Positions 8,401-32,189 of a stretch of 33,678 bases of DNA are shown piece by piece. The notes under the pieces are model-generated. The model was given only the letters and a program-made list of their open reading frames with translations, was not told the origin of the DNA and made no database searches. How positions within the stretch are numbered: the stretch's first letter is position 1; every line of letters begins with the position of its first letter. The translations under genes and the position numbers were made by a program. Where the stretch lies: contig NZ_JACVQL010000170.1 in assembly GCF_019733465.1 (NCBI RefSeq), positions 1 to 33,678 of the forward strand, given 5' to 3'. The stretch is from Actinotalea ferrariae. Its GTDB lineage: Bacteria > Actinomycetota > Actinomycetes > Actinomycetales > Cellulomonadaceae.

Positions 8401-8757
8401 CCGCTCCTCCACAAACGCCAACGTCTGCTCGACGGCAGCGCGGTGCGCCGCGTGAACAGCGGCCTGAGTGCGCCGGTCGCCCAACGCCCACAACGTCGAG
8501 ACCGACTTCGGCGGGGTGAAGGTCAGATCGAACCCCGCCACCGCCTTCGGCACCGCCCGAGCCATCTCGACCTTCGTGATGGTGTCGCGCGCGGCGTGAC
8601 GGGCCTCACCGGTCAGGGTCGGCGGCAGCTTGGCGACGCTCGCGGCGATCCGCTCCGCCACCGGCACAACCTTCGGATACGCGCGCCCCAGCAACGCGCC
8701 GGTGACCGGGTGGCGTCCGGCGCCGAAGAGATGCGCCATCGCCCCTTCGGTCACCAC
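5416..8757 (-). CDS. MobF-family relaxase-helicase (TraA/TrwC type), main open frame
   Basis: This protein nicks and unwinds mobile-element DNA at oriT for transfer. The visible 1113 residues from GTG 8757 hold the second part of the relaxase domain, GFDLTFTPPKSVS (about 75-87), and the metal-binding three-histidine motif, HWHSRAGDPNLHTHVVV (H145, H147, H156, H158). A RecD/TraI-like helicase follows: Walker A GPAGSGKTTT near residue 490, Walker B-like LVIVDEAS further on, and the late YATTTHRAQGITTTT and NLYVAMTRGR helicase motifs. Relaxases of this family start with a tyrosine-bearing segment; here that segment lies just upstream in another frame (8859-8957). GTG 8757 is therefore not the natural start and the gene is probably inactive, unless the frameshift is a sequencing error. 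The DUF4913-like gene follows in the same operon. Confidence 0.9.
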   Translation of the reverse strand: MVTEGAMAHLFGAGRHPVTGALLGRAYPKVVPVAERIAASVAKLPPTLTGEARHAARDTITKVEMARAVPKAVAGFDLTFTPPKSVSTLWALGDRRTQAAVHAAHRAAVEQTLAFVEERALFTRTGRAGCRQERTAGVIAAAFDHWHSRAGDPNLHTHVVVANKVRGTDGAWRSVDSRALHHAVVAASETYDALFADALSRALPVRWEWIFKGPRRSIGLELDGTDPVLLSEFSSRTTQIDEAMTARLAEFYAAHGRGPNRVEVVRLRAQVTRATRPGKTVRPLSELLVAWRERATARTGLTPAELTARVLRQAQVQPQASVEVPDAVIEHLAGPVLTQVMARRSTWTRWNVHAEVARTTRALTMATPADRLALLDRVTDAVLASCLSVEAPAILSVTGRYARPDGTSVFDRVGEEAHTHPAVLAAEARLLAATQDITAPRAAAASGIPIAAGAGVPRLAADQAHAVRAVATSGRRVDVLVGPAGSGKTTTVLSLRRLWEQTHGRGSVLGLAPSSSAAAQLATALGITCENTAKWLHESSGPAASTRAALLADLHTIRATALTEGDQARARTADSAIRTLSAQVDSWTMREGQLVIVDEASLASTASLDAVVAQAVSAGAKVLLVGDGAQLSAVDAGGAFALLAERCGPARLTSLWRFIHPWEAEATMALRRGNPRVLEEYADHGRIHDGPSEAMLEDAYTAWTSDTERGITSVLIAPDAASVAALNARAHRDRVTDGLVAPDGITTRAGAQIGVGDRVVTRANARRLRTEAGGWVRNGDLWNVTAVHADAALTLTRTSAHAERPGAPTRVRVPPDYAADHVEHGYATTTHRAQGITTTTAHVLAHAGMTRENLYVAMTRGRAANHLYVAIDAIDPDCDALPDVHAPTDAHQLLTDILTTPGAQQSATATIAARQDQVESLRRLEPIRRTLLADTAHTRWATALIDAGLDPQAARAAMTSPNAGALVVALGRIDTVTGDVAPVLRQLVAAASDEPGLDHAVRLRFAAMDWLDRHMPDPHDIHPDTSTHGMDDDGRALLTQVDDAIAARIAALTGQVLTDRPTWLAALGPEPSGPEARTAWLDAVAATAVRLDRSPAPATTPTLATTPPPVAVR

Positions 8758-11809: not shown

Positions 11810-12208
11810 GGTGCGCGCCGGGCGCGCGGGCGTCAGTACGGCGCAGCAAGGTTGTGTGAGGCGCGAGTCCTGAGCCGTACCTGTGGACAGCGAAGGGAGA
11901 CCTCGCCTCATGGGCCACTCGACGAGAGGCTTCGGCTGCCGGTAGCGCCAAGGTCGAGATGCTCCTCCATGCCGGACCCAGCGGGGTCTGCCCTCTGGTC
12001 GCCATCACCCACCTGCTCGCGATCGGTCCTCCGCGAGGGAGAAGGTCGTGAGCGTGGGCGGGTCCGGACCGCCGAGGCCATGAGATCGAGGCACCGCCGG
12101 GCTGGCGAGGCGTGTGGTCGCTGAAGTCGGCATGTCGCGGTTGGCCGTGCAGGTGGCAGCGATGAGCTCGTGTGCCGAGACCCGGTCGTCGCCCCTCAGA
12201 AGACAGAC
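11810..12208. other. roughly 400-bp intergenic stretch upstream of the copper ATPase
   Basis: It lies between the divergent prepilin peptidase and ATPase genes. Open frames here are short shadows and no domain is recognised. The regulatory sites begin at 12209. Confidence 0.45.
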
Positions 12209-12227
12209 GATGAAGGTTCGATGAAGG
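12209..12227 (+). promoter_or_regulatory. CopR-type direct repeat upstream of copB-like gene
   Basis: GATGAAGG - TTC - GATGAAGG is a perfect direct repeat with 11-bp period, the helical spacing used by OmpR-family response regulators. The core TGAAG pair resembles the CopR site reported for Corynebacterium glutamicum. It lies about 77 bases before the ATPase start, and related repeats occur near three other loci of the island. Confidence 0.7.
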
Positions 12228-12271
12228 CTGGTGCGACGGGAACAGCCGGCGCGGCATTCTGGTTCCCACGG

Positions 12272-12288
12272 GTACCCCCCAGGGGTAT
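12272..12288. promoter_or_regulatory. CsoR-type operator
   Basis: GTACCC - 5 nt - GGGTAT is a near-perfect palindrome with the architecture of CsoR copper-repressor boxes. It matches the two boxes at 24734 and 24768 except for one outer base. It ends 15 bases before ATG 12304, where a bound repressor would block the transcript start. Confidence 0.75.
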
Positions 12289-12303
12289 CGAGAGAAGTAG
12301 GTG

Positions 12304-14520
12304 ATGAGCGAGCACCAGCACCACCACGGGCAGGACGAACACAACGGTCAACCGCATGCCGACCACGGTGTGACCGCGGCGTCGACGGTGGAAGACAGCA
12401 CGCGTACCGCCCCAGTTGGGTCGGAGACGGACAGCCCGCCGCGCACCGACGGACACCACGCACACCACGGCACCGCCACGGGGCATGCGGCGGCGGGCCA
12501 CGAGGCGGGCGCCATGGCTGCGCACGCCGGCCATGGAGACACCGGCCACGGGGATCACGCAGCGACGTTCCGCGACCGGTTCTGGGTCAGCCTGGCGCTG
12601 GCGGTCCCGGTCGTGGTCTTCAGCCACATGTTCGCCGATCTCCTGGGCTACACCCCGCCCACCTTCCCGGGCTCAGCCTGGATCTCGCCGGTGCTCGGCA
12701 CGGTGGTGTACCTGTACGGCGGGTGGCCGTTCCTCACCGGCGCGGTCACCGAGGTCCGCGCCCGCAAGCCGGGGATGATGCTGCTGGTCGCCACGGCGAT
12801 CACCGTCGCCTTCGTCGCGTCGTGGGCCACCACCCTCGGCGCGGCCATGGCGCTGGACTTCTGGTGGGAGCTGGCGCTCCTGGTCGTCATCATGCTGCTC
12901 GGCCACTGGCTCGAGATGCGCGCCCTCGGCGCCGCGTCAGGCGCTCTGGACGCCCTGGCTGCCCTGCTGCCCGACCTCGCCGAGAAGGTCTCCGAGACCG
13001 GCACCGTTGAGGTGCCACTCGACCAGCTGCGCACGGGGGACGTCGTCTTGGTTCGCGCCGGCGGCCGCGTCCCGGCGGACGGGGTCGTCGTCGACGGCGC
13101 CGCGCACCTGGACGAGGCCATGATCACGGGCGAGTCCAAGGCCGTGCGCCGCGGCGTCGGCGACCAGGTCGTGGCTGGGACGGTCTCGACCGACTCCACC
13201 ATCCGCGTCCGGGTCACCGCGGTCGGCGCCGACACCGCGCTGGCCGGCATCCAGCGCCTGGTAGCCGACGCGCAGGCATCGAGCTCGCGCGCGCAGGCGT
13301 TGGCCGACCGCGCGGCCGGGTTCCTGTTCTGGTTCGCCCTGGTCGCCGGTGTGCTCACGTTCATCGTCTGGGCCGCACTCGGCGACATGCCCGACGCCGT
13401 CGAGCGCACCGTGACGGTCCTGGTCATCGCCTGCCCCCACGCCTTGGGTTTGGCGATCCCGCTCGTGATCGCGATCTCCACCGAGCGCGCCGCCCGCGCC
13501 GGCCTGCTGGTCAAGGACCGCCTGGCCCTGGAGCGGATGCGCACCGTCGACACCGTCCTGTTCGACAAGACCGGCACCCTGACCGTCGGACGCCCGACAG
13601 TCACCGACGTGTCCGCGGTGCCTGGCGAGGACCGCGACGCGCTGCTCGCCCTCGCGGCGGCGGTCGAGTCCGACAGCGAGCACCCGGTAGCACGCGCGAT
13701 CGTCAGCGCCGGCGCCAGCTCGGCCCGCCCGCAGGTGTCGGACTTCGCAGTCCTGCCCGGTCGTGGGGTGCGTGCCGTCGTCGAGGGACTTCAGGTGCAC
13801 GTCGGTGGACCGGCGCTCCTCGCCGAGCTCGGCGCGACCGTTCCCGCCGACCTTGAGGCCGCGGCCCGTCCGTGGGCCCAGCGAGGCGCGTCCGTCCTGC
13901 ACGTCGTCCGTGACGGTCAGGTGCTCGGCGCGATCGCCGTGGAGGACGCGGTCCGACCCGAGTCGCGGGAGGCGGTCGCCGCCCTGCGGCGCCGCGGCGT
14001 GCACGTGGCCATGGTCACCGGTGACGCGCAGAACGTCGCCGACGCGGTCGCCGCCGACCTGGGCATCGACGAGGTCTTCGCCCAGGTGTTGCCCGCTGAC
14101 AAGGACAAGAAGGTCGCCGAGCTGCAGGCGCGCGGCCGCCGGGTCGCCATGCTCGGCGACGGTGTCAACGACGCCCCAGCCCTGGCACGCGCCGAGGTCG
14201 GCATCGCGATCGGCGCGGGGACCGACGTGGCGGTGGAGTCCGCAGGGGTAGTTCTAGCCTCCGACGATCCGCGTGGGGTGCTGTCGGTGATCGAGCTGTC
14301 GCAGGCGTCTTACCGCAAGATGTGGCAGAACCTGGCCTGGGCAACCGGGTACAACCTCATCGCCGTCCCGCTCGCTGCCGGTGTCCTTGCCGGGATCGGG
14401 TTCGTCCTGTCTCCGGCCGTCGGAGCGGTGCTCATGTCGGTGTCCACGATCGTCGTGGCGCTTAACGCCCAGCTCCTGCGTCGGCTGGACCTGGATCCGG
14501 CGGCGGTCGCGACCCGCTGA
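12304..14520 (+). CDS. copB: P1B-type copper-exporting ATPase, CPH class (CopB-like)
   Basis: A 738-residue membrane pump that hydrolyses ATP to export copper ions. The first 86 residues are histidine-rich (HQHHHG, HHAHHG, HGDTGHGDH), replacing the CxxC metal-binding domain of CopA. Motifs in order are TGES (about 276), the membrane CPH metal site (about 378), DKTGT with the phosphorylated Asp (about 421), SEHP in the nucleotide domain, and [11 protein letters not shown] places it in the P1B-3 group with Enterococcus CopB, described as exporting Cu2+/Cu+ (a few members Ag+). The start is ATG 12304 after GAGAAG; GTG 12301 is also in frame. It is preceded by both a CopR-type repeat and a CsoR-type box, implying dual copper control. 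A strong hairpin follows its stop. Confidence 0.92.
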   Translation: MSEHQHHHGQDEHNGQPHADHGVTAASTVEDSTRTAPVGSETDSPPRTDGHHAHHGTATGHAAAGHEAGAMAAHAGHGDTGHGDHAATFRDRFWVSLALAVPVVVFSHMFADLLGYTPPTFPGSAWISPVLGTVVYLYGGWPFLTGAVTEVRARKPGMMLLVATAITVAFVASWATTLGAAMALDFWWELALLVVIMLLGHWLEMRALGAASGALDALAALLPDLAEKVSETGTVEVPLDQLRTGDVVLVRAGGRVPADGVVVDGAAHLDEAMITGESKAVRRGVGDQVVAGTVSTDSTIRVRVTAVGADTALAGIQRLVADAQASSSRAQALADRAAGFLFWFALVAGVLTFIVWAALGDMPDAVERTVTVLVIACPHALGLAIPLVIAISTERAARAGLLVKDRLALERMRTVDTVLFDKTGTLTVGRPTVTDVSAVPGEDRDALLALAAAVESDSEHPVARAIVSAGASSARPQVSDFAVLPGRGVRAVVEGLQVHVGGPALLAELGATVPADLEAAARPWAQRGASVLHVVRDGQVLGAIAVEDAVRPESREAVAALRRRGVHVAMVTGDAQNVADAVAADLGIDEVFAQVLPADKDKKVAELQARGRRVAMLGDGVNDAPALARAEVGIAIGAGTDVAVESAGVVLASDDPRGVLSVIELSQASYRKMWQNLAWATGYNLIAVPLAAGVLAGIGFVLSPAVGAVLMSVSTIVVALNAQLLRRLDLDPAAVATR

Positions 14521-14526
14521 CCCGAC

Positions 14527-14565
14527 GCACGATGGCCCGCCACCGACAGGGGCGGGCCATCGTGC
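14527..14565. terminator. strong bidirectional hairpin terminator
   Basis: A perfect 15-bp stem (14527-14541 with 14551-14565) and 9-base loop lie between the convergent ends of the ATPase and the ferredoxin-like gene. There is no long U-tract, as is common in GC-rich actinobacteria. Confidence 0.8.
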
Positions 14566-14580
14566 TGCGCGGGGGGACGG

Positions 14581-14997
14581 CTACGCGGTGTGGACGTGCG
14601 CGTCGTCCTGTGCAGGCGCGGATCGGTCGATCACCAGCTCATCCAGCGGCGCCGGTGGTCGGCCCGCGCCCGGTCCGCCGGCACGCAACCAGGTCGCCAG
14701 GGCGTCGGTCGCGTCGTCGCCGGCGAGCCGTTCGAACCAGACCGGCGCGACCCCGGCACGTCGGCAATGCGCGGTCGGACGGGCGACGACGACGTCGCCG
14801 CGTTCACACTCGTCCAGGCACTCGACGAAGGTCAGGCGCGCGACGCCCTCGTCTGCGAGGCGGCGCAGTCGCTCCGCTTGACCGCCGGGCAACGGGTCGA
14901 TGCCGACCAGGGTTTCCCCGGCGCACAGGCTGCACGCCGTCAGGCCCGGCACCTCTGCCGCGCCTGACGCAGCCCGCTGGTTATCGGGCGCTCTCAC
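14581..14997 (-). CDS. thioredoxin-fold [2Fe-2S] ferredoxin-like protein
   Basis: A 138-residue soluble protein from GTG 14997, whose start overlaps the exporter stop as GTGA, a sign of translational coupling. Four cysteines are placed as C22-x2-C25 and C60-x3-C64 with a VECLDECERGDVVV core, the arrangement of thioredoxin-like [2Fe-2S] ferredoxins; C78 is extra. The C-terminal half (VAPVWFERLAGDDATDALATW) matches the helical end of that group. The tail ends in DDAHVHTA. In this operon it could serve in metal handling instead of electron transfer, but that is inference. It is the last gene of the kmtR-CDF operon and faces the terminator at 14527. Confidence 0.7.
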   Translation of the reverse strand: MRAPDNQRAASGAAEVPGLTACSLCAGETLVGIDPLPGGQAERLRRLADEGVARLTFVECLDECERGDVVVARPTAHCRRAGVAPVWFERLAGDDATDALATWLRAGGPGAGRPPAPLDELVIDRSAPAQDDAHVHTA

Positions 14998-16019
14998 TTG
15001 TGCACCGGGGCGGGAGTGATGACGACCTCGCCCACGTTGGGCAGCACGGCGCGCACACGCTGCTCGGCGTCACGAGTGATGGCCGCGGCCGCAGCCAGCG
15101 GCGCGGTGGCGCAGGTCCCGATCGTCGCGTCGACGTGCAGGTGGTGTCCCACCCACCTGGCGCGGATCCGGTCGACCTCCTCCACCCCCGGGGCGGCGGC
15201 CAGTGCAGCGCGGGCGTCCTGGATCAGGCCGGGATCGACGCCGTCCATGAGGCGTCCGACGACATCCCGGAGGGTCCCGCGCAGCAGCACCAGGATCATG
15301 GCGGTGATGAGCAGACCGACGAGCGGGTCGGCCAGCGGGAACCCGGCTGCGACGCCGAGCGCGCCCGCGAGCACGGCCAGGGACGTCAGCCCGTCAGTGC
15401 GGGCGTGCACGCCGTCAGCAACCAGAGCGGCCGAGCCGATGCGCCGTCCGACCCGGATGCGGTAGACCGCCACCGCCTCGTTGCCGGCGAACCCGACGAG
15501 GCCGGCGGCCGCGACCCACCAAACCTGCTCGATGGCCACCGGGTCGACCAGGCGGCGGACCGACTGCGCGCCGGCGACCACGGCGGACAGGGCGATCATG
15601 GCGACGATGAACAGGCCGGCGAGGTCCTCGGCGCGCCCGTACCCGTAAGTGAACCGGGTGGTCGGTGCACGCCGGCCGAGCGCGAACGCCAGCCACAGCG
15701 GGAGGGCGGTCAGGGCATCGGAGGCGTTGTGGACGGTGTCGGCCAGCAGCGCCACCGACCCGGTGACAGCGACGATCGCGAGCTGGACCAGGGCCGTCAG
15801 ACCCAGGCCTACCAGGCTGACCTTGACCGCCCGGATGCCCGCGGCGCTGCTCTCCAGGGCGCCGTCGATGGAGTCGGCCGGGTCGTGCGAATGCGGGGAG
15901 AACAGCCCGCGGAGCACGCCTCGTAGACCGCCGTGATGGTCGTGCCCGTGATGGTCAGGGCCGTGGTCGTGGTCGTGGTGCTCGTCGATCGCGTGACCGG
16001 CGTGGTGGTGGCCGGTCAC
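14994..16019 (-). CDS. cation diffusion facilitator (CDF) metal exporter
   Basis: A 341-residue proton-coupled metal exporter from GTG 16019, which overlaps the repressor stop as GTGA; the frame upstream of it is arginine-rich shadow. The N-terminal 45 residues are histidine-rich (HHHAGH, HHDHDHG, HHGHDHH). Six membrane helices follow. The transport site is made by H97-x3-D101 in TM2 (DTVHNASD) and H205-x3-D209 in TM5 (DGVHARTD), an HD/HD site. A cytoplasmic ferredoxin-like domain ends the protein (VDRIRARWVGHHLHVDATIG). The HD/HD pair is usual in Zn/Cd transporters, yet the coupled regulator carries the KmtR nickel/cobalt ligand set, so Ni or Co export is a real possibility. The substrate cannot be settled from sequence. 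Confidence 0.9.
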   Translation of the reverse strand: MTGHHHAGHAIDEHHDHDHGPDHHGHDHHGGLRGVLRGLFSPHSHDPADSIDGALESSAAGIRAVKVSLVGLGLTALVQLAIVAVTGSVALLADTVHNASDALTALPLWLAFALGRRAPTTRFTYGYGRAEDLAGLFIVAMIALSAVVAGAQSVRRLVDPVAIEQVWWVAAAGLVGFAGNEAVAVYRIRVGRRIGSAALVADGVHARTDGLTSLAVLAGALGVAAGFPLADPLVGLLITAMILVLLRGTLRDVVGRLMDGVDPGLIQDARAALAAAPGVEEVDRIRARWVGHHLHVDATIGTCATAPLAAAAAITRDAEQRVRAVLPNVGEVVITPAPVHK

Positions 16020-16384
16020 GCGTCGGCCTGCCCGGCGATCAGACGCGGGCGATGGTGGGCGGGGTGGTCGGAGGCGACGTGCTCGGCGTTGTACACCGCG
16101 TCGGTGACCAGCTGCTCGACGTGGTCGTTGGCCGGCCGGTAGTACACGCTCGTGCCGACCCGACGGGTCTGCACCAGCCGTGCCAGGCGCAGCTTGGCCA
16201 GGTGCTGGGAGACCGTGGGACCCGGCTTGCCGGTGTGAACGATGAGCTCGTTCACCGACATCTCCCGGCCCACCAGGGCCCACAGCAGCCGAACCCTGGT
16301 CGGGTCGGCGAGCATCCGGAACACCTCGGCGGCGAGCTCGGCCTGGTCCTCCTCGAGCGGCGTCTGCTCGCTATCTGCACGCAT
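16016..16384 (-). CDS. kmtR: ArsR/SmtB-family repressor, KmtR-like nickel/cobalt sensor
   Basis: A 122-residue winged-helix repressor. The DNA-reading helices are MSVNELIVHTGKPGPTVSQH and the following wing TRRVGTSVYYRP. In the C-terminal helix and tail, H88, E101, H102, H110 and H111 coincide in number and spacing with the five ligands reported for Mycobacterium tuberculosis KmtR. That protein senses Ni/Co and controls a CDF exporter, as is encoded directly downstream here. The start is ATG 16384. A TAACAT -10 box six bases upstream implies a leaderless transcript, and an inverted repeat overlaps the start, consistent with autorepression. First gene of a three-gene operon. Confidence 0.85.
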   Translation of the reverse strand: MRADSEQTPLEEDQAELAAEVFRMLADPTRVRLLWALVGREMSVNELIVHTGKPGPTVSQHLAKLRLARLVQTRRVGTSVYYRPANDHVEQLVTDAVYNAEHVASDHPAHHRPRLIAGQADA

Positions 16385-16396
16385 GCGCAGATGTTA
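16373..16396 (-). promoter_or_regulatory. promoter/operator of the kmtR-CDF operon
   Basis: The inverted repeat ATCTGC - 8 nt - GCAGAT (16373-16378 and 16387-16392) overlaps the kmtR start codon and the TAACAT -10 box (16391-16396, minus strand). The patch just upstream (ATTATTAAAG) is strikingly A/T-rich for this DNA. A repressor bound here would cover the transcription start. Confidence 0.5.
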
Positions 16397-16464
16397 CTTT
16401 AATAATGCTGGTGCACCGCGCCGGGGCCACCGCGGAGGTCACGCGATCGCCCCGGCTTGAATGT

Positions 16465-17079
16465 TCACAGCTTGCCGAGCATCTCCTGCATCTCGTCGAT
16501 CTCCGCGGTCTGGGCGTCGATGATCGCTCGAGCCAGGTTCAGTGCGTCAGGGCTGGCCCCGTCCTCGAGCTGCTCCTCGGCCATCTCGATCGCGCCCTGG
16601 TGGTGGGCGGTCATCAGGTCGAGGAACGACCGGTCGAAGTCGACGCCCTCGAGCTGCTCGAGGGACGCCATGGCTCCCTCTTGGTCCATGCCCTCCATGT
16701 CCATCCCCCCGTGGTCCATCGCGTCGGACTGCTCCTCTCCCCAGGCTTCCAGCCATCCGGACATCTGCTGGATCTCGGGGTCCTGCGCGTCGTAGATCCG
16801 CTGTGCGAGGTCGCGGACGTCGTCGGTGCTGGCCTTGTCCAGCGCGAGCTCAGCCATCTCCAGGGCGCCCTGGTGGTGCACGATCATCATCTGGGCGAAC
16901 TCGGTGTCCGCGTCGTTGTGCTCGTCTGCCGCCTCGGTAGCGGCGTCCTGCTCGGTCGCGGTCGCGGTCCCGTCGGTGGGCTGCCCCGCCGGTTCGTCAG
17001 CGCCGGAGCACGCGGCGACCGTCAGGGCGAGGGCCACGGCCGCGGTCGTGGCGGTCAGGCGGCGGGTGGTGGTGCGCAT
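16465..17079 (-). CDS. DUF305 copper-binding lipoprotein (CopM-like)
   Basis: A 204-residue exported lipoprotein from ATG 17079, after an AAGGAC ribosome-binding site. The signal peptide ends in the lipobox LTVAAC (C24), followed by a disordered acidic linker. The DUF305 core is two homologous helical halves, each with the HHQGA metal motif (H68-H69 and H159-H160). A methionine/histidine loop, DAMDHGGMDMEGMDQ, joins them at about 119-133. DUF305 proteins are ferritin-like four-helix bundles; CopM of cyanobacteria binds periplasmic copper. Placed divergently from copR, with a CopR-type repeat between, it probably buffers copper outside the membrane. Confidence 0.88.
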   Translation of the reverse strand: MRTTTRRLTATTAAVALALTVAACSGADEPAGQPTDGTATATEQDAATEAADEHNDADTEFAQMMIVHHQGALEMAELALDKASTDDVRDLAQRIYDAQDPEIQQMSGWLEAWGEEQSDAMDHGGMDMEGMDQEGAMASLEQLEGVDFDRSFLDLMTAHHQGAIEMAEEQLEDGASPDALNLARAIIDAQTAEIDEMQEMLGKL

Positions 17080-17185
17080 GAGGTCCTTCCCTAGGAGTGG
17101 GTCGTGGTGGTGCGGTCAGTCGGTGCTAGTCGCTCATCGGACACCTCACTGTCGGTAGCCGGCTCTGTACGCACGCTGGCCGTTG

Positions 17186-17204
17186 GGTCAAGGTTCGATG
17201 AAGG
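17186..17204 (+). promoter_or_regulatory. CopR-type direct repeat before copR
   Basis: GGTCAAGG - TTC - GATGAAGG keeps the 11-bp period and even the TTC spacer of the copB site, with a weaker first half. It lies between the divergent DUF305 and copR genes and could serve autoregulation. Confidence 0.65.
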
Positions 17205-17254
17205 TCGCCGCGCGGGCCGGGCGCGGGGACCGCTCGCGAGCGGCGCCAGACAAG

Positions 17255-17989
17255 ATGGGTCCTGTGAGCACCGCGTCCGCCCCGCCTGCCCGCAGTGCTG
17301 TCGTCGTGGACGACGAGGAGCCACTGGCCCGACTGGTCGCCGGCTACCTCGAGCGTGAGGGGTACACCACGACCCTGTGCCACGACGGCGCCCGTGCCAT
17401 CGCCCTGCTGCGGGAGGTCGGCCCGGACCTGGTGATCCTGGACCTCGGCCTGCCCGGGCTGGACGGGGTGGAGGTGTGCCGGCAGCTGCGGACGTTCTCC
17501 GACTGCTACGTCGTGATGCTCACGGCACGCACCGACGAGGTCGACACCCTCATCGGTCTGTCCGTGGGCGCCGACGACTACCTGACCAAGCCGTTCAGCC
17601 CGCGCGAGCTCATGGCCCGCGTCGCGGCCCTCATGCGACGGCCACGACGTGCGGCCTCGGTCGCCGCCGCCCCGCCGGCGGCGCCCGCACTGGAGGTCGG
17701 CGACCTGAGCATCGACGTCGACGCGCGCGAGGTGCACCGCGACGGGCATCTGGTGGCGCTGACTCGCACCGAGTTCGACGTCATCGCTGCGATGGCGGCC
17801 AGGCCAGGGCGGGTGTTCAGCCGACGCGCCCTCATCGACACCGTCTGGGGGCCGGGGTGGGTCGGGGACGAGCACTTGGTCGACGTCCACGTGCTGCACG
17901 TGCGCCAGAAGCTCGGCGACACCGCCGACGCCCAGCGGTACATCCGCACCGTTCGCGGCGTCGGCTACCGCATCGGGACCGGCGCATGA
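17255..17989 (+). CDS. copR: OmpR-family response regulator, CopR-like
   Basis: A 244-residue regulator. The receiver domain (about 14-130) has the acidic pair D19-D20, phosphoacceptor D63 in VILDLGLPG, the signalling Thr in MLTART and K112 in LTKPF. The winged-helix DNA-binding domain (about 150-242) ends in the typical RYIRTVRGVGYRI. ATG 17255 or GTG 17264 are the plausible starts; the open frame upstream is not protein-like. It overlaps the kinase gene by ATGA. Its position in the copper island and the four TGAAG direct repeats nearby make it the likely regulator of these genes. The copper signal is inferred from context. Confidence 0.88.
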   Translation: MGPVSTASAPPARSAVVVDDEEPLARLVAGYLEREGYTTTLCHDGARAIALLREVGPDLVILDLGLPGLDGVEVCRQLRTFSDCYVVMLTARTDEVDTLIGLSVGADDYLTKPFSPRELMARVAALMRRPRRAASVAAAPPAAPALEVGDLSIDVDAREVHRDGHLVALTRTEFDVIAAMAARPGRVFSRRALIDTVWGPGWVGDEHLVDVHVLHVRQKLGDTADAQRYIRTVRGVGYRIGTGA

Positions 17990-19113
17990 CCGCGGCCGGC
18001 GAGACGCGTCCCGCGGGGGCGGCGTGGGGCCTGGGTGCCCGGCTGCTCGCCGGCCTGGTCATCGTGCTGGCGACGGCCGCTGTCACGGCGTGGCTGGTCG
18101 CGTCCGCCGTCGGGCCGGGTGTGTTCCACGACCACATGCTCCGCGCCGGGCTGGAGGACCACGACGCCGCGGTCGTCCACGCCGAGCAGGCGTTCCAGGA
18201 CGCCAGCACGATGTCCCTCGCGCTGGCCATGGGTGCCGCCGCCCTCGCTGCCGCGGCAGTCAGCCTGGTCCTGACCCGCCGCATCGGCCGTTCCCTCGCC
18301 GCGGTCTCCACCGCAGCGGCCCGGGTCGGGGCCGGCGCCTACGAGTCCCGGGTGCCCGACCCGGGGCTGGGCGCTGAGTTCGACGACCTCGCGCGGTCCT
18401 TCAACGCGATGGCTGACCGGCTGCACGAGGCCGACCGGCTACGCGCACGCCTGCTGGCGGACGTCGCCCACGAGGTCCGCACCCCGGTCGCGACCATCAC
18501 CGGGTACCTCGAGGCGGTTGAGGACGGCATCCAACCTCTCGACGAGACGACGATCGCCGTCCTGCGGGAACAGGCCACACGCCTCACGCGCCTGGCCCGA
18601 GACCTCGCCGCCGTCACGCACGCCGAAGCCGGCGACCTCACTCTGGACCTGGCGATCGTGCCGGCCCCCGACCTGCTGCGCGCGGCGACTGCCGCGGCCG
18701 GGGAACGCGCCGCGGCCGCCGGCGTCAGCCTCGTACTGGACGTCGCCGAGGGCGTGCCGCCGGTCTTCGTGGACCGCACCCGCATCGCGCAAGTGCTCGA
18801 CAACCTCGTGGCGAACGCGGTCCGTCACACCCCGCCCGGCGGCACCATCGTGCTGTCGGCGGAGCCGGCCGCGGACGGTCAGGTGGCGTTCGTCGTCACC
18901 GACACCGGGGAGGGCATTGCGGCCGAGCACCTGCCGCACCTCTTCGAGCGCTTCTACCGAGCCGACACCGCCCGGGACCGAACCCGCGGCGGATCGGGCA
19001 TCGGCCTGGCGATCAGCAAGGCGCTGACGCTCGCCCACGGCGGCAGGATCTCGGTGACCAGCGACGGCGTCGGCCACGGCGCCACGTTCACCATCACCCT
19101 GCCGGCAGCCTGA
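17986..19113 (+). CDS. copS: sensor histidine kinase, CopS-like
   Basis: A 375-residue membrane kinase, translationally coupled to copR (ATGA, 17986-17989). TM1 is at 19-41 and TM2 at 77-97, leaving only about 35 residues outside. That loop holds H48, H50, H59, H65 and M51 (FHDHM, EDHDAAVVHAEQ), credible copper ligands. A HAMP linker (about 98-150), the phosphorylated H162 (DVAHEVRTP) and an HATPase domain with N-box DNLVANAVRHTP, G1 DTGEG and G2 GGSGIGLAI follow. It would phosphorylate CopR when extracytoplasmic copper rises; the metal is inferred. The gene ends 40 bases before the convergent DUF6803-like gene. Confidence 0.88.
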   Translation: MTAAGETRPAGAAWGLGARLLAGLVIVLATAAVTAWLVASAVGPGVFHDHMLRAGLEDHDAAVVHAEQAFQDASTMSLALAMGAAALAAAAVSLVLTRRIGRSLAAVSTAAARVGAGAYESRVPDPGLGAEFDDLARSFNAMADRLHEADRLRARLLADVAHEVRTPVATITGYLEAVEDGIQPLDETTIAVLREQATRLTRLARDLAAVTHAEAGDLTLDLAIVPAPDLLRAATAAAGERAAAAGVSLVLDVAEGVPPVFVDRTRIAQVLDNLVANAVRHTPPGGTIVLSAEPAADGQVAFVVTDTGEGIAAEHLPHLFERFYRADTARDRTRGGSGIGLAISKALTLAHGGRISVTSDGVGHGATFTITLPAA

Positions 19114-19153
19114 GACCCACCGCGGGCACCGTCGCGCCGAGCGCGTGGCGGCG

Positions 19154-19825
19154 TCACGGCGTCATGCCGTCCATTGTCGAGCCGTCGTTCATGACGTGGG
19201 TGGCGTCCCACCCAACGACGGCCGGGTCCAGCATGCCGGCGATCATCGCGATGTGGGCCACGACGAGGAAGAGGCCCACCATCGTGGCGTGCACCTTCAG
19301 GCGGCGCTGGTCGTGCCAGTCGGCGCCCAGGGCGCGGGTCTCGAGCAGGCTCATGCCGAGCAGCGGGACGATGCCGAGCAGGTAGAACCCCACCGCGACA
19401 ACGTCGGCCCAGCCGCGCCAGCCACCGGACGTGGTCAGCGGGATGACGGCGTGCTTCGTGAGGTAGACAAGGACGCCGAGGAAATAGAACCCGGCCACCA
19501 GGCCCGCATACCGGTTCACGCCCGCGACGACCGGGGCGACGGTGCGGCGGAACAGGATCGCCAGCTCGGACACGGCGATCGTCTCGGCCAGGACGACCGG
19601 GACCGCCATGAACAGCAGCAGGTTCCACGGCTGGTTTGCGGCGAGCAAGCCCATGTAGTGGGTCGAGCCCATGTCGTCGCCCGCGGGCCAGGCCGGCAGG
19701 AGCAGGCCGATGACGGCGATGGCGAGGCTGACGATGGTGACGACCGCGATGCGGACGTGGCGCCCGCGCGCGGCGGCGAGCGGGGAACCGGCCAGGCCGG
19801 CGGTGGTAGGTGCGGTGGCGACCAT
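19154..19825 (-). CDS. DUF6803-like multi-pass membrane protein
   Basis: A 223-residue protein from ATG 19825, with a GAAGGGAT ribosome-binding site; the frame is open further upstream but only with low-complexity sequence. About five membrane helices are present. The sequence THYMGLLAANQPWNLLLFMA, the later KHAVIPLTTSGGWRG and LVVAHIAMIAGMLDP match the pattern I recall for DUF6803 permease-like proteins of Gram-positive bacteria. Several buried His and Met residues, and an end rich in Met, suggest metal contact. Function is unknown. A CopR-type repeat lies about 85 bases upstream of the start, between it and the divergent hydrolase. Confidence 0.7.
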   Translation of the reverse strand: MVATAPTTAGLAGSPLAAARGRHVRIAVVTIVSLAIAVIGLLLPAWPAGDDMGSTHYMGLLAANQPWNLLLFMAVPVVLAETIAVSELAILFRRTVAPVVAGVNRYAGLVAGFYFLGVLVYLTKHAVIPLTTSGGWRGWADVVAVGFYLLGIVPLLGMSLLETRALGADWHDQRRLKVHATMVGLFLVVAHIAMIAGMLDPAVVGWDATHVMNDGSTMDGMTP

Positions 19826-19907
19826 GAGGATCCCTTCGATGAGCGCGCCGGACCGTCCGACGCCCCCATCACCGTCGGCGCGTTCGACAGACGTTCGGCA
19901 GATGAGC

Positions 19908-19926
19908 GATGAAGAGCCGATGAAGG
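19908..19926 (+). promoter_or_regulatory. CopR-type direct repeat between DUF6803-like and hydrolase genes
   Basis: GATGAAGA - GCC - GATGAAGG, again with 11-bp period. A partial third copy (GATGAGCG) precedes it at 19901. It could control either or both divergent genes. Confidence 0.65.
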
Positions 19927-20125
19927 CGGCCGCTGAGGCGACCGCCGTGGGCCTCATCCGGGACCTGAGACCTACTGCGCCTCGCGCCCACGCAGGTCGA
20001 GGCGGGCAGCGGGAGCGTCTGCGCATTGCATGCCACCAGCCGGCGCCCCGGGGTGCGTGCCCGCGGTGCCCGCTCCCACGAGCGGTGTCTTCCAAGGCGG
20101 GCCCAGAGATCAGTACGGTCGGCAG

Positions 20126-21424
20126 GTGGCAGACGACGCCGTCCCGCGGCCGCAGGGCACTGCCGCCCGATCGAGAGGGCGCCTCGGTCGGGTCGTGGCC
20201 TTGTCCCTGCTGGCTGGGTTGGTCGCCGCCGCCTTCCTAGTCTTCGCGCCTTTCATCCCGGCGACCGAAGCCGGGATCACCGGCGCGCTGCTGTGCGGGC
20301 TCGCCATCGGTTGGGCGCTGTTGACCGTCCTGTCCGTCCGGTTCACCGACCAGCCGCAGCGGTGGGCGGCGGCCCCAGCCCTGTTCATGGGCGTCGGTGG
20401 CCTGCTGCTTCTCACGGCGGGATCTGCGGTGCTCGAGCCGCTGGCGTGGGTGTGGCCTCCGGTCCTGCTGGCGCTGGTCATCTGGATGTTCCTGCGGGTC
20501 CGTCGGGACGCGCGCAGCGGCGGGGGTCGCGCACTCCTCTACCCGGTGCTCGTCGTGCTCGCGCTCGCCTCGGTAGGCGGCGGGTACCAGACCGTGCAGG
20601 GGGCAGTCGACTCCTCGCGTGCCATGCCCGGGCAGCTCATCGACGTCGGCGACCACCGCCTGCACCTGAGTTGCGCCGGATCAGGAAGCCCCACGGTGGT
20701 CCTGGACCCCGGTGCCGGCATGGTCTCCGCCCAGCTCGACCTCGTCGCCCCAGTCGTCGCTGAGCAGACCCAGGTCTGCATCTACGACCGGGCAGGGCGC
20801 GGCTGGAGCGAGCCGGCCATGACCCGCCAGGACGCCACGCAGATCGCCGCCGACCTGCACACACTGCTTGAGGCCGGTGAAGTCCCGGGACCGTACGTGC
20901 TGGCCGGGCACTCCTTCGGCGGCCTGTACGCCCTGACCTTCGCCGCCCGCTACCCCGACGACGTCGCCGGGATGGTCCTGATCGACACCACACCCCCGGC
21001 ATCCACACAAGCCTCCACCGGAGAGCCTGCTGGTGACGAGGGTGCCGCCATCGGCGACCGGCTCGCGACCTTGGTGTCGATCTCCGCCCGCCTCGGCGTC
21101 ACTCGCCTGATCGACCAGCCCACCCCCGACAGCGTACGCAGCACGCTCCACGAGTACGGCCAAGGCGGCGCCTCGGCGCAGGAAGCGGCCGCCCTACACG
21201 ACTTCGCGGACAAGCCGCTCGTCGTCCTCACCGCCGGGATCGGTCAGGACCCGCAGGACGCCGCGGCGCACCAGGTCCTCGCGGGGCTGTCCACCAACGG
21301 TGTCCACAGAGTCGTCGAAGGCGCCGATCACGGTGGGATGGTCACCGACTCGACCGGTGCGGCCGCGACCAGCCGCGCCATCCTCGACGTCGTGGCATCG
21401 CTTCGGAGCGGCCAGTCGCTGTAA
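20126..21424 (+). CDS. membrane-anchored alpha/beta hydrolase
   Basis: A 432-residue protein with GTG 20126 as preferred start; earlier codons give a proline-rich, unlikely N-terminus. Residues 20-160 contain four or five membrane helices (VVALSLLAGLVAAAFLVFAP onward). The hydrolase domain follows: the oxyanion-loop region VVLDPGAGM, CIYDRAGRGWSEP, the nucleophile elbow GHSFGG, the acid in a later strand (VVLTAGIGQD region) and the histidine in EGADHGGM. Substrate is unknown; lipid or ester hydrolysis at the membrane is likely for this fold. Its place beside the CopR-type repeat suggests a link to envelope stress under copper, which is inference. Confidence 0.82.
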   Translation: MADDAVPRPQGTAARSRGRLGRVVALSLLAGLVAAAFLVFAPFIPATEAGITGALLCGLAIGWALLTVLSVRFTDQPQRWAAAPALFMGVGGLLLLTAGSAVLEPLAWVWPPVLLALVIWMFLRVRRDARSGGGRALLYPVLVVLALASVGGGYQTVQGAVDSSRAMPGQLIDVGDHRLHLSCAGSGSPTVVLDPGAGMVSAQLDLVAPVVAEQTQVCIYDRAGRGWSEPAMTRQDATQIAADLHTLLEAGEVPGPYVLAGHSFGGLYALTFAARYPDDVAGMVLIDTTPPASTQASTGEPAGDEGAAIGDRLATLVSISARLGVTRLIDQPTPDSVRSTLHEYGQGGASAQEAAALHDFADKPLVVLTAGIGQDPQDAAAHQVLAGLSTNGVHRVVEGADHGGMVTDSTGAAATSRAILDVVASLRSGQSL

Positions 21425-21598
21425 CCGGCGCCCCTGGGCACGCAGCCGGGACGCGGGGTGTTGGGATGAGGAGTGCGCAAGACGACGACTGACTCTCGTC
21501 GGACGAGGAGCCGTCCCCTTCACCACACCTGCCTGCCCCACGCGGCGAGGTGGGATGCGATGCCACCGCAATGCAGGCACGCTCTGCACCGAACCTGA

Positions 21599-22516
21599 TC
21601 AGGCGCGAGGTCCGAACGACGCACCTCCGTCGGTGGAGGTGAGGACGCCGGACGACGTGACCACGACGATCTCGAGCCGCGTCGCGAGGTGACGGGCCGC
21701 GATGGCTTGCGGAACGTCGCCGACCTCGCCTGCATAGGTCCATGAGTCGGCGGCGTCAGAGCTGACGTACACGGCCCCGTCGGGGTTCACCGCGACCACC
21801 GTCGTCGCGTCGACAAAGTGGCTGAGCATCAAGAGCGGTCCGTCGGGGTCGAGCTCCCAGGACGCACCCGCGTCCCGCGAGCGCAGCACGCCCTCGGGGG
21901 TCGTCGCCACCAGGACTGTGCCGTCCGGGCTCGCAGCAAGTGCGTGGATGCCGCTCGGTGCCTGAGCTGCGTGCCATGTCCGACCGTCCGGTGACGTCAG
22001 GAGGTCCGACCCGTCGAACCCGACCACGCCAGCTGATGTGACCGCCAAGGCGTGGAAGTCAGTGAGGCCCTCCCGCGAGACACCGGTCCAGGAATCCCCT
22101 CCGTCGGACGACGCGATCAGCCCGACCGGGTTCGGCAGCGCCAGATTCGGCCCTGGATGACCAGAGGCGTAGAAGCGGTCGGGGCCCTCCACCGCGAAGC
22201 CCATGAGGTCGATCTGGGGGCCGACGCGTACGAACCCATCCGTCTCGTCGCGGAACAGACCATCGTGTGTCGCCAGGTAGAGGTCACCGTCTGCGGGATT
22301 AAACGCGGCCCCGTGCACGTGCTCGCTGGGGACGAGACGCTCCTCGTCGCCAGCGGACGCGGAAGGGGAAGGCGCACCCGTGCCGGAACTCCGGTCGGGC
22401 GCCGCGGGGGCGGCGCAGGAGCTGAGGACGACGATTGCCAGTGCGAGCGCCCCGCTTCCACTGAGCCGGAAGAGCGCCTTGCCACGGGCGTCAACCCGAG
22501 TGGTTCTAGCTCTCAT
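21599..22516 (-). CDS. F510_1955-like beta-propeller lipoprotein (sialidase/BNR fold)
   Basis: A 305-residue exported lipoprotein from ATG 22516 (GAGAGGA upstream); TTG 22525 is a weaker alternative. The signal peptide ends in the lipobox VVLSSC (C34), followed by a Ser/Pro linker. The rest is a seven-blade-type propeller with BNR/Asp-box turns: SSDGGDSWTG, TSPDGRTWHA, SRDAGASWEL, SSDAADSWTY and STDGGASFGP. The opening blade HVHGAAFNPADGDLYLATHDG is typical of the proteins named F510_1955-family glycosylhydrolase. Catalytic sialidase residues are not evident, so enzyme activity is doubtful. It follows copZ on the same strand after 197 bases. Confidence 0.8.
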   Translation of the reverse strand: MRARTTRVDARGKALFRLSGSGALALAIVVLSSCAAPAAPDRSSGTGAPSPSASAGDEERLVPSEHVHGAAFNPADGDLYLATHDGLFRDETDGFVRVGPQIDLMGFAVEGPDRFYASGHPGPNLALPNPVGLIASSDGGDSWTGVSREGLTDFHALAVTSAGVVGFDGSDLLTSPDGRTWHAAQAPSGIHALAASPDGTVLVATTPEGVLRSRDAGASWELDPDGPLLMLSHFVDATTVVAVNPDGAVYVSSDAADSWTYAGEVGDVPQAIAARHLATRLEIVVVTSSGVLTSTDGGASFGPRA

Positions 22517-22713
22517 GTCGTCCAAGTCCTCTCTCGTCGCCGACCGCTACCCGGAGCAGCAGCTGCCGGTGCGAGAGAGACGATGGCCGGCCACCGCCCG
22601 AGCACTCGGCATCCGAACGTGGGGCCTGAAGAGGCGTTCTGCGCCTCGCGGGAATGCTCGGCGACCAGCTGTTTCGCCGGAGCAGGCGAAGGTTGGCCCT
22701 ACCGCGCCTGCGC

Positions 22714-22926
22714 TCATGCGGGGTGACCGCTGAAGGCGTAACCGGCCTGCGACACGGCATGGGCCACCACTGCCTCGTCCAGGACGTCGCGGCTCGCGAT
22801 CGTCACGGTTCCTGAGGCGACGTCGACGGTGACGTCCTGAACCTCGGGGACCTTGCGGAGCTCGGCGGTGACGGACGAGGCGCAGTGGCCGCATGTCATG
22901 CCCTCGACGCCGTAAGTGATCTCCAT
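22714..22926 (-). CDS. copZ: CopZ-like copper chaperone (HMA domain)
   Basis: A 70-residue single heavy-metal-associated domain. The copper-binding loop is GMTCGHC near residues 9-15, and the ferredoxin-like beta-alpha-beta-beta-alpha-beta pattern runs to the end (VTVDVASGTVTIA, then AVSQAGYAF). It shuttles Cu(I) in the cytoplasm to exporting ATPases. The start is ATG 22926 with a GAGGAGC ribosome-binding site. A CopR-type repeat about 120 bases upstream on the same strand suggests control by the two-component system, unlike the second copZ, which follows CsoR boxes. The frame open upstream is not protein-like. Confidence 0.9.
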   Translation of the reverse strand: MEITYGVEGMTCGHCASSVTAELRKVPEVQDVTVDVASGTVTIASRDVLDEAVVAHAVSQAGYAFSGHPA

Positions 22927-23043
22927 CGCGGTGCTCCTCGTCTCGTCATGATCCGACCAGGTCGCGGCCGACTGCGCCGTGACGCCCGACCCTAGCCAGC
23001 GAGGCTGCAGCCGTCGGGCCCGGAACCGCTCGGTCGTTCTCTT

Positions 23044-23060
23044 CTTCAGCAACTCTTCAT
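23044..23060 (-). promoter_or_regulatory. CopR-type direct repeat before copZ
   Basis: On the minus strand TGAAG recurs at 23059-23055 and 23048-23044 with 11-bp period (ATGAAGAGTTGCTGAAG). A second, imperfect plus-strand pair (CGAAG 23095, TGAAG 23105; 10-bp period) lies nearby. Confidence 0.6.
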
Positions 23061-23240: not shown

Positions 23241-24008
23241 TCAGCCGACGCGGATGAACACCGGGTTCGACTGCCAGATCTCCCTGATCTGGATCGTCTT
23301 GCCCGGGACAGGCGCGTCGACCTGCAGGTTCCCGCCGGCGTAGATGGAGATGTGACCTGGAGACCAAATCAGGTCGCCCGGCTGAGCCTGCTCGAACGGC
23401 ACTGCGGTGCCCGCATACCGCTGATCGGCGGAGGTGCGAGGCAGCGTGATGCCCACCTGGGCGTAGACGTAGGAGGTGAAGCCGGAGCAGTCGAACCCGT
23501 CAGGCGTCGTCCCGCCCCACACGTAGGGCACACCCACGTACCGGGAGGCGATCTCGACGATGGCACTGCCGTTGGCGCTCGCCGGCGCCGGAGCGCCGAT
23601 CTCGGCCTCCCGGGCCGGGGCGGCCCGCTCCGCGCTTCGGGACGCGGGCTCCGGCTCCGGCTCCGGGGGCGGAGGCGGCGGATCGGCGACGACGCTGATC
23701 GCCGGGACGTCGAAAGTCCATGCGGCATCGCTCGGGACCGAGACAGGGGCGGACACCGCGAGCGCTCGCTGCGCCTCGACGGTCAACGAGGCAGTGTCGA
23801 CGGACGGCAGACTGGGGTGCTCCGCCGGAGCGGCGGCCGCGGCAGGGCTGGCCAGCATAGAGACGATCAGGCTCGAGGCGCTCGCGGCGACCGCTGCCCT
23901 CCGCCCGGTGCCGTCCAGGCTTCGTGCGGTCGAGGCGAGGACGTCGTGGATCGGGGTATGCGGGGCGCCCGGGGCGCGGTGACGCGCGGCGGCCGAGAGT
24001 TCAGGCAT
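23241..24008 (-). CDS. NlpC/P60 peptidoglycan endopeptidase
   Basis: A 255-residue secreted wall hydrolase from ATG 24008, with a GGAGAGG ribosome-binding site. The N-terminus has an atypically long, Arg-containing n-region before the hydrophobic segment ASASSLIVSMLASPAAAAAP (about 43-62). A Pro/Glu-rich spacer covers about 105-145. The NlpC/P60 domain holds the catalytic Cys in DGFDCSGFTSYVYA (about C174), the His in WSPGHISIY (about H219) and a polar third residue. It cleaves peptide stems of peptidoglycan. It is preceded by a c-di-AMP riboswitch, as is common for actinobacterial wall hydrolases, and ends at a hairpin. It is the only cell-wall gene inside the copper island. Confidence 0.9.
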   Translation of the reverse strand: MPELSAAARHRAPGAPHTPIHDVLASTARSLDGTGRRAAVAASASSLIVSMLASPAAAAAPAEHPSLPSVDTASLTVEAQRALAVSAPVSVPSDAAWTFDVPAISVVADPPPPPPEPEPEPASRSAERAAPAREAEIGAPAPASANGSAIVEIASRYVGVPYVWGGTTPDGFDCSGFTSYVYAQVGITLPRTSADQRYAGTAVPFEQAQPGDLIWSPGHISIYAGGNLQVDAPVPGKTIQIREIWQSNPVFIRVG

Positions 24009-24021
24009 CAAAACCTCTCCA

Positions 24022-24733: not shown

Positions 24734-24750
24734 ATACCCGCGGGGGGTAT
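24734..24750. promoter_or_regulatory. CsoR-type operator 1 of the copZ-copA operon
   Basis: ATACCC - GCGGG - GGGTAT is a perfect-arm palindrome of 17 bp. Its centre is 34 bp from that of the next box, so two repressor assemblies could sit on neighbouring faces of the promoter. Confidence 0.8.
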
Positions 24751-24767: not shown

Positions 24768-24784
24768 ATACCCACCGGGGGTAT
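24768..24784. promoter_or_regulatory. CsoR-type operator 2 of the copZ-copA operon
   Basis: ATACCC - ACCGG - GGGTAT has the same length and spacer as box 1. It lies 21 bases before the copZ start codon. Confidence 0.8.
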
Positions 24785-30831: not shown

Positions 30832-31050
30832 ATGGCTATCCAGCCACTGGACGGGACCCGAGGCACGCGCCCGGAACCCGCGCGCCGGTTCTACCGGGTG
30901 AAGGAAGCTGCCGCCGTTCTCGGCATCCCCCAGCGCACCCTCTACCACCTGGCCGAGACGGAACAGATCCCGTGCCGGCGCCTCGGCAACGTGATCCTGT
31001 TGCCAAAGTCGTGGGTAGAGAGCGACGCACCACCGCCTCGGCGGCGCTGA
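30832..31050 (+). CDS. xis: excisionase-like helix-turn-helix protein
   Basis: A 72-residue protein from ATG 30832 with a GGGAGGA ribosome-binding site. Residues 19-60 form the winged-helix excisionase fold: FYRVKEAAAVLGIPQRTLYH, then QIPCRRLGNVILLPKSWV. The tail is proline/arginine-rich. In integrative elements this protein bends att DNA and directs the integrase to excision. The integrase gene starts within its stop codon (TGATG), as is usual for actinobacterial xis-int pairs. Confidence 0.85.
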   Translation: MAIQPLDGTRGTRPEPARRFYRVKEAAAVLGIPQRTLYHLAETEQIPCRRLGNVILLPKSWVESDAPPPRRR

Positions 31051-32189
31051 TGGCCGTAGTCCGACGAGTGCTGGACTCGGGCTCGGTCCAATGGCGCGCC
31101 CGGGTCTACTTCAAGGGCCGCATCGTCGCGCAGCGGTCGTTTGATCGACGAACCGATGCAAGGCAGTGGGAGGCCGACCAGATCGCTCGGTTGCGGGAAG
31201 GCACCTGGATCGACCCAGCTCGCGGCAGGGTCGCTTTCGACAAGATCGCCGAGGACTGGCAGCAGTCTCGGCAGCACCTCGCGATGCGTAGCCAAGAGAC
31301 CACCCGGTTCCTGCTGGACGCCTACATCCTTCCCGCGCTCGGTCGCGTACCGATCGGCTCCATCGCCCCGCTCGACGTTGAGCGTCTGCTCACTGAGTTG
31401 ACCGCGCGCGGACTCGCGACCGCGACTCGACGCCGAGTGCTCTCGGTGATCCGACTCGTGCTTGATCACGCGATACGTGATCGCCGGCTGGGCGAGAACG
31501 TCGCTCGTGACGTCGAGCTTCCACGCGGCCGCACCAAGCGCGAGCCGCACTGGTTGCGCGCCGAGGAACTGAAGCGTCTTGCAGACACCACGCCAGCGAC
31601 CTGCCGGCCGGTCGTGCTGTTCCTGGGTCTGTCCGGTTGCCGCTTCTCCGAGATGGCTGCACTCCGCGTGGACGACGTCATCCAGACCCAGCATGGTCTC
31701 GGCGTCCGCGTGCACCGAGCCGCGCCCCAGTCCAAGCAGACCCACGCGGCGGTGATCGGGTCTACCAAGACACACCGAACCCGGACCGTGCCCGTGCCCG
31801 TCGCGGTCGAGCGGTACGTCGTCGACCGAGTCGCCCAGGCAGCGCCGGGCGATTACCTCTTCCCGAGCCCTACCGGCGTCATCTGGACGAACACGAACTT
31901 TCGGCACCGCGCCAAGTGGCACCAGACGACGGCCGCAGCCGGGCTCGCCGGCACGACTATCCACGACCTTCGCCACACAGCGGCGACCTTGCTCATCGCC
32001 TCAGGCGCCGACCTCAAGGCTGTCCAAACGATCCTCGGCCACGCGTCCGCGACGATGACGATGGACCTCTATGGGCACATGTTCTCCGACGCGCCCTGGC
32101 TGGCGATGGCACGGATGCCGACCTGGCAGGACGACTCGGCAGCCGGCGGCGAACGGTCCGGAGAGAAGACTGATGGCGCCGCTCAGTGA
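31050..32189 (+). CDS. int: tyrosine-type site-specific integrase
   Basis: A 379-residue recombinase from ATG 31050. The N-terminal arm-type binding domain (about 1-60, VLDSGSVQWRARVYFKGRIV) is followed by a SAM-like core-binding domain (about 65-160). The catalytic domain holds Arg in SGCRFSEMAAL, Lys in the beta-hairpin STKTHRTRTV, HDLRHTAATLLI with H and R, and the closing LGHASATMTMDLYGH with the nucleophilic Tyr. It integrates and excises the mobile element at an attachment site. No tRNA or recognisable att core is visible in the 149 bases between its stop and the IS; insertion of the IS may have displaced or covered it. Confidence 0.93.
   Translation: MAVVRRVLDSGSVQWRARVYFKGRIVAQRSFDRRTDARQWEADQIARLREGTWIDPARGRVAFDKIAEDWQQSRQHLAMRSQETTRFLLDAYILPALGRVPIGSIAPLDVERLLTELTARGLATATRRRVLSVIRLVLDHAIRDRRLGENVARDVELPRGRTKREPHWLRAEELKRLADTTPATCRPVVLFLGLSGCRFSEMAALRVDDVIQTQHGLGVRVHRAAPQSKQTHAAVIGSTKTHRTRTVPVPVAVERYVVDRVAQAAPGDYLFPSPTGVIWTNTNFRHRAKWHQTTAAAGLAGTTIHDLRHTAATLLIASGADLKAVQTILGHASATMTMDLYGHMFSDAPWLAMARMPTWQDDSAAGGERSGEKTDGAAQ

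Follow-up and report, generated by a model that had tools for sequence, protein, structure and literature searches.

The TGAAG direct repeats in a copper island of Actinotalea ferrariae are very probably binding boxes of the island's CopR, through which copper would act via CopS and CopR to activate copRS, copB, copZ and a DUF6803 gene, with CsoR repression added at copB. Judged by sequence comparison, the boxes mark a real, conserved regulon. We analysed a window of 33,678 nucleotides, the whole stretch of DNA under study (contig C80), together with the genome to which it belongs (4.26 Mb, 426 contigs) and related loci in other genomes and plasmids.

Probable CopR boxes in the window and in a second copper island

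Boxes were scored with a matrix of 192 distinct sites from 62 loci at a cut of 14 bits; its training and scoring loci overlapped, but 16 of the 23 full-length DUF6803 loci lay outside the training set. The putative boxes and the features around them were as follows.

12208..12227, + strand: CopR box of copB, CGATGAAGGTTCGATGAAGG; 36.6 bits, 0 mismatches to the consensus
17185..17204, + strand: CopR box of copR, first half TCAAG; 30.1 bits
19907..19926, + strand: CopR box of DUF6803, inverted relative to that gene and also upstream of the hydrolase gene; 29.8 bits
23044..23059, - strand: CopR box of copZ, TGAAGAGTTGCTGAAG; 28.8 bits
23094..23109, + strand: weak box-like sequence; 13.3 bits, below the 14-bit cut
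12304..14520, + strand: copB, P1B-type copper ATPase (TIGR01511)
16465..17079, - strand: DUF305/CopM-type protein, divergent from copR
17251..17256, + strand: candidate -10 element CAAGAT of a putative leaderless copR promoter, 63 bp from the box start
17264..17989, + strand: copR, OmpR-family response regulator
17986..19113, + strand: copS, sensor histidine kinase
19154..19825, - strand: DUF6803 membrane protein (PF20617)
19847..19861, no strand: dyad GCCGGRNNNYCCGGC in the DUF6803 leader, conserved in 19 of 22 loci
20129..21424, + strand: membrane alpha/beta hydrolase, possibly under CopR control
22714..22926, - strand: copZ-like copper chaperone; CopZ models match below their curated cut-offs
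12273..12287, no strand: CsoR-operator-type palindrome TACCCCCCAGGGGTA between the CopR box and copB; matches the C. glutamicum CsoR box
24735..24749, no strand: CsoR-type palindrome upstream of an HMA chaperone gene (24806) and copA
24769..24783, no strand: second CsoR-type palindrome of the HMA chaperone (24806)/copA promoter

The initial annotation had placed four TGAAG pairs with an 11-bp period in this island, and all four were found as direct repeats of two half-sites, three of them exact (12211+, 19910+ and 23044-) and one as TCAAG..TGAAG (17188+). The perfect repeat claimed before copB was also present, as CGATGAAGG/CGATGAAGG at 12208-12227. With up to one mismatch, TGAAGN6TGAAG matched five times in the window against 0.41 expected, including a weak additional match at 976+, and none of 100 shuffles reached five. 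A box-like sequence at 915-930 (20.4 bits, halves TGATG and TCAAG) had no clear target gene.

The known CopR site of C. glutamicum, TGAAGATTTgaTGAAGATTT, has been tested by EMSA and mutation and lies at -59..-78 of copR, according to the available text of PMC3140484; the available text of a review agrees on the site (PMC3353115). The form given in the initial annotation, TGAAGATTTnnTGAAGATTT, was correct by the same text of PMC3140484. As far as that text describes the C. glutamicum CopRS regulon (Schelder et al. 2011), it resembles the present one in its TGAAG half-sites and 11-bp period, in box position (here -76..-57 of the GTG of copR), in the inclusion of copB and in a related CopR. It differs in that a single site serves two divergent operons, whereas here there are two islands with several boxes each, the further targets DUF6803 and copZ, and a CsoR palindrome at copB. 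The full 9-bp repeats of C. glutamicum, TGAAGATTT, were absent from the window boxes, where TGAAG is followed by R-TTCG and not by ATTT. Since the TGAAGR core and the period are kept and the 9-bp repeat is not, the box (consensus CGATGAAGRTTCGMTGAAGR) would be a variant of the C. glutamicum site and not identical to it. In the corynebacterial plasmid pLEW279b, TGAAGATTTGATGAAG precedes the conserved part of CopR, a protein 51% identical to the window CopR. The annotated copR coding sequence of this plasmid (L206:688-1494) contains the box; its start has probably been placed too far upstream. With a related OmpR-family CopR encoded in the genome, a box just upstream of its gene, the same core, period and place as in C. 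glutamicum and the same box in the same position in pLEW279b, the proposal of the initial annotation that these are CopR sites is well supported.

Contig C124 carries a paralogous copper island (L031:4579-19637), which has a separate copRS pair and five CopR boxes. Identity to the window was 75% for copR, 70% for copS and 78% for the hydrolase. The island encodes CopRS, DUF305 proteins, a DUF326 (four-helix) protein, CopB, an NlpC/P60 protein and the hydrolase, and its copR is also preceded by a TCAAG-variant box. A strong box at L031:14140, between the convergent copB and NlpC/P60 genes, had no obvious target. Where the Cellulomonas C5510 plasmid has genes for glutaredoxin and CcdA, this island has a gene with a weak match to glutaredoxin and one for a membrane protein; the protein in the CcdA position had no Pfam match. 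Both islands bear the same boxes, and the acting regulator may be the CopR of either.

Several neighbouring genes were also recorded. An NlpC/P60 protein, about 70% conserved, stands beside both islands (23241-24011 and L031:14337-15356). The small protein of 14581-14997 had no Pfam match; it has a relative in C124 (69%), and a protein at L100:1212-1775 begins like it and ends in a YHS domain. The protein of 21599-22516 showed a weak Sortilin match, and in Rhodococcus and Gordonia plasmid copper islands an F510_1955 family glycosylhydrolase gene lies near copB and copZ-like genes. The C124 island is adjoined by a gene for a phage-type integrase (L031:3379-4524). The window contig itself carries genes for a TrwC-type relaxase/helicase (5416-8739), a phage-type integrase (30972-32189) and a transposase-like integrase-core protein (32397-33575), which suggests that it belongs to a plasmid or integrative element. 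When 12001-33678 was compared with plasmids, 116 records shared a stretch, 47 of them from Sinorhizobium, mostly at 90-95% overall identity in the band.

DUF6803 and the membrane hydrolase

The DUF6803 protein of the window matched PF20617 with 229.7 bits against a Pfam gathering cut-off of 27. This family was rare, occurring in 2 genomes of a phylum sample of 396 and in 22 of 221 genomes and 3 of 25 genera of the bacterial family, with a single genus contributing 18 of the 22. We collected 23 full-length loci, two of which are duplicate contigs of one genome, and left out the fragments L237 and L240. A box lay upstream in all 23 (23-37 bits), always inverted relative to the gene, and 16 of the 23 loci were outside the matrix training loci. 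The sole DUF6803 locus outside the family (L124) had no box of at least 10 bits in 1969 bp.

CopR (E<=1e-70) was encoded in all 22 genomes with DUF6803, compared with 43 of 150 family genomes. Six DUF6803 loci in five genomes (G545 twice, G557, G560, G566 and G574) had no copR at this threshold within 100 kb on the same contig, and tblastn of the 15-20 kb around them (5-10 kb per side) gave no CopR at E<=1e-8. The DUF6803 box was the sole box of at least 14 bits in five of these six regions; that of G560 retained a 63-residue piece of copS with a second box. Because DUF6803 is boxed even where no copR is near, its link to the CopR box is more than a matter of neighbourhood.

About five hydrophobic stretches were seen in the protein, and H56, H179, H191, H210 and several Met were invariant in 19 sequences. 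Judged by the positive charges, the D51-M58 loop and the His/Met tail appear to lie on the outer side, which would fit a role in copper handling at the outer face. A DUF6803 profile had 0 matches among PDB sequences, and a search of the PMC literature returned no paper on DUF6803. The dyad GCCGGRNNNYCCGGC occupied the same slot in the DUF6803 leaders as the CsoR palindrome in copB promoters, with a different sequence.

The box at 19910 lies between DUF6803 and the membrane hydrolase gene, and we think it somewhat probable that it serves DUF6803 alone, with the hydrolase a bystander. DUF6803 is boxed at every full-length locus and would suffice to explain this box without the hydrolase. Among the 219 genomes searched for the hydrolase, 8 contained 10 homologues, and a box was upstream of two, both of them the copies of the A. 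ferrariae genome; the eight homologues in other genomes had none, and the hydrolase was rejected as a conserved CopR target. Against a service to DUF6803 alone stands the second hydrolase copy, which has no DUF6803 beside it and is boxed upstream (L031:15384, 34.1 bits). The hydrolase is thus weakly linked to CopR at most, and of the two genes that the initial annotation had tied to copper signalling through these boxes, DUF6803 is strongly upheld and the hydrolase is not upheld beyond this genome.

Specificity of the boxes in the genome and among CopR relatives

The regulator that reads the boxes could in principle be another OmpR-family protein, or the CopR of the second island alone, with the adjoining copRS incidental; we regard this as improbable. 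OmpR-family regulators often use 11-bp direct repeats, which lends this explanation some weight, as does the C124 CopR with its same boxes. It is opposed by the C. glutamicum CopR site, which is identical in kind, and by a comparison of spacing and box position around copR in the family.

CopR was searched in 150 family genomes. The scores fell continuously (256, 246, 231, 226 and 220 bits), with no sharp gap between CopR and MtrA-like proteins. We took 60 regions (1.07 Mb) around the best matches, which by hand count are 60 of the 62 places with at least 279 bits outside the window genome; their CopRs were 56-84% identical. The count of TGAAG-Nk-TGAAG was 75 for k=6 and between 0 and 6 for each other k from 0 to 39, and the reversed pentamer at k=6 did not occur. 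An exact pair was present in 46 of the 60 regions and absent from 14. At 73 loci of other response regulators k=6 was not enriched (8 occurrences; 0-20 at other k up to 19), which argues against a different reader, as does a box before copR with a readable -10 at 41 of the 62 loci. The matrix gave 43 matches of at least 14 bits in the 1.19 Mb of these 73 loci; this count was set aside, and spacing alone used, since many of the genomes are AT-richer and misfit the background model.

In the 62 loci the matrix found 237 sites of at least 14 bits and one in reversed sequence, and only 2 of the 237 lay within called genes (about 145 expected). Seven named genome loci of CopR relatives (52-67%) included four with a box of at least 20 bits, directly before copR in two. 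Plasmid records with a CopR match numbered 57, of which 12 were examined; the best plasmid match to the window CopR (70%) suggests a relationship to Cellulomonas. A box of at least 14 bits preceded copR in seven (Cellulomonas, pLEW279b, Rhodococcus, Mycolicibacterium, Rothia, Tsukamurella and Gordonia) and was absent there in five (C. halotolerans, Cryobacterium, Kocuria, Streptomyces and Chlorohelix). Within 500 bp upstream of genes of several protein clusters (L063-L122 and L031), boxes were also seen for glutaredoxin-like (28/28, mostly the shared divergent copR box), DUF326 (11/13), SHOCT-like (11/12) and DUF2933 (10/12) proteins, names that rest on one member each, with glutaredoxin and SHOCT matches below the Pfam cut-off.

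In the whole genome, the loose pattern (up to one mismatch) matched 33 times and 28 times in the reversed control. It was rejected as a genome-wide test for being unspecific, and a 20-mer consensus, the matrix and strict spacing were used in its place. Seven of eight exact genome matches lay in the two island contigs (3 in C80, 4 in C124); the eighth (C168) was rejected as a site, with merely 0.9 bits by the family matrix. The 20-mer CGATGAAGRTTCGATGAAGR at up to three mismatches gave eight matches, in C80 (3) and C124 (5), and none in the reversed control. The copZ site fell outside this cut, yet scored 28.8 bits by matrix. Among the matches with up to one mismatch outside the islands that were scored, C71:5069 exceeded the 14-bit cut (1 mismatch, 18.2 bits); its surroundings contained no readable target. 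The initial annotation had proposed that a motif as frequent as background would speak against a regulon: the loose pattern came near its control, and the 20-mer did not. Chance matches or an interspersed repeat element, to which the loose counts alone give any footing, can be dismissed as highly improbable, since none of the eight consensus boxes lies outside the copper islands, the pairs concentrate at spacing 6 in the family, box flanks differ among promoters, and related promoters retain box and spacing.

Promoter architecture and a proposed CsoR layer

The copR promoters consisted of a box, a -10-like element (ACAAT, AAGAT or similar) and a start codon about 7 nt further on, from which we infer that they are leaderless. 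From 43 copR loci, L083 and L104 were dropped as regex artefacts. In the remaining 41 the distance from box to -10 was 42-43 bp (15 loci), 52 (5), 58 (1), 62-66 (18), 74 (1) and 86 (1), so that 38 of the 41 have the box at 42-43, 52 or 62-66 bp, approximately one helical turn apart. De-duplication left 29 promoters (3 more lost, 9 merged as near-duplicates), with resultant lengths of 0.80 at 10.5 bp, 0.81 at 11, 0.26 at 8 and 0.56 at 7; because the promoters are related, a p-value for this phase is merely indicative. A box on a preferred DNA face upstream of the -10 would fit an upstream activator. Of 43 copR boxes, 27 had TCAAG as their first half, against 23 of 194 other boxes, which suggests a tuned autoregulatory site.

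The palindrome TACCCCCCAGGGGTA at 12273, 46 bp past the CopR box of copB, matches both the CsoR box that PMC5057107 quotes for C. glutamicum and the S. lividans CsoR sites of PMC3902906, in the available text of both papers. It has the TACCCC-N3-GGGGTA form of the type 2 CsoR operator described there. The TACCC-N5-GGGTA dyad occurred at eight places in the genome and nowhere in the control: three in the window, two in C124, one before csoR, and two in C387 and C396. As in known CsoR systems, the genome has a csoR gene with its own palindrome; this one CsoR gene (C198, 106 bits) has it about 36 bp upstream. Unlike the CsoR operators described there, the copB palindrome has a CopR box as partner at a fixed distance; no box accompanies those at 24735 and 24769. 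The 62 loci contained 45 palindromes, 24 with a CopR box within 300 bp, and 17 of these at a gap of 43-50 bp, compared with 0.8 for random local shifts (maximum 4 in 300). A helical period in these gaps was rejected, 10.5 bp being no better than other periods, and we claim clustering only. No description of a joint CopR/CsoR promoter was found in the literature searched, which is weak evidence of absence.

We propose that CopS senses copper outside the membrane and phosphorylates CopR, which would then bind in tandem, as a dimer, to a pair of TGAAG half-sites with an 11-bp period and activate copR-copS, copB, copZ and DUF6803. At copR it would do so from the preferred face upstream of the -10 of the leaderless promoter. 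At copB, the palindrome would add CsoR repression, lifted by cytoplasmic copper, and the exporter gene would read copper on both sides of the membrane. Such a two-sensor exporter promoter (CopR box for the outside, CsoR palindrome for the inside, at a fixed distance), together with DUF6803 as a dedicated CopR-controlled handler of copper at the outer face, is a tentative proposal to which we give slightly less than an even chance.

With these boxes, a regulon known as single-site and from one species becomes a conserved code that spans several promoters and is legible in the sequence. The copper islands described here sit near relaxase, integrase or transposase genes. DUF6803 thereby gains a regulon and hence a testable role, and the pairing of sites at copB suggests that the gene of the copper exporter combines inputs from either side of the membrane.
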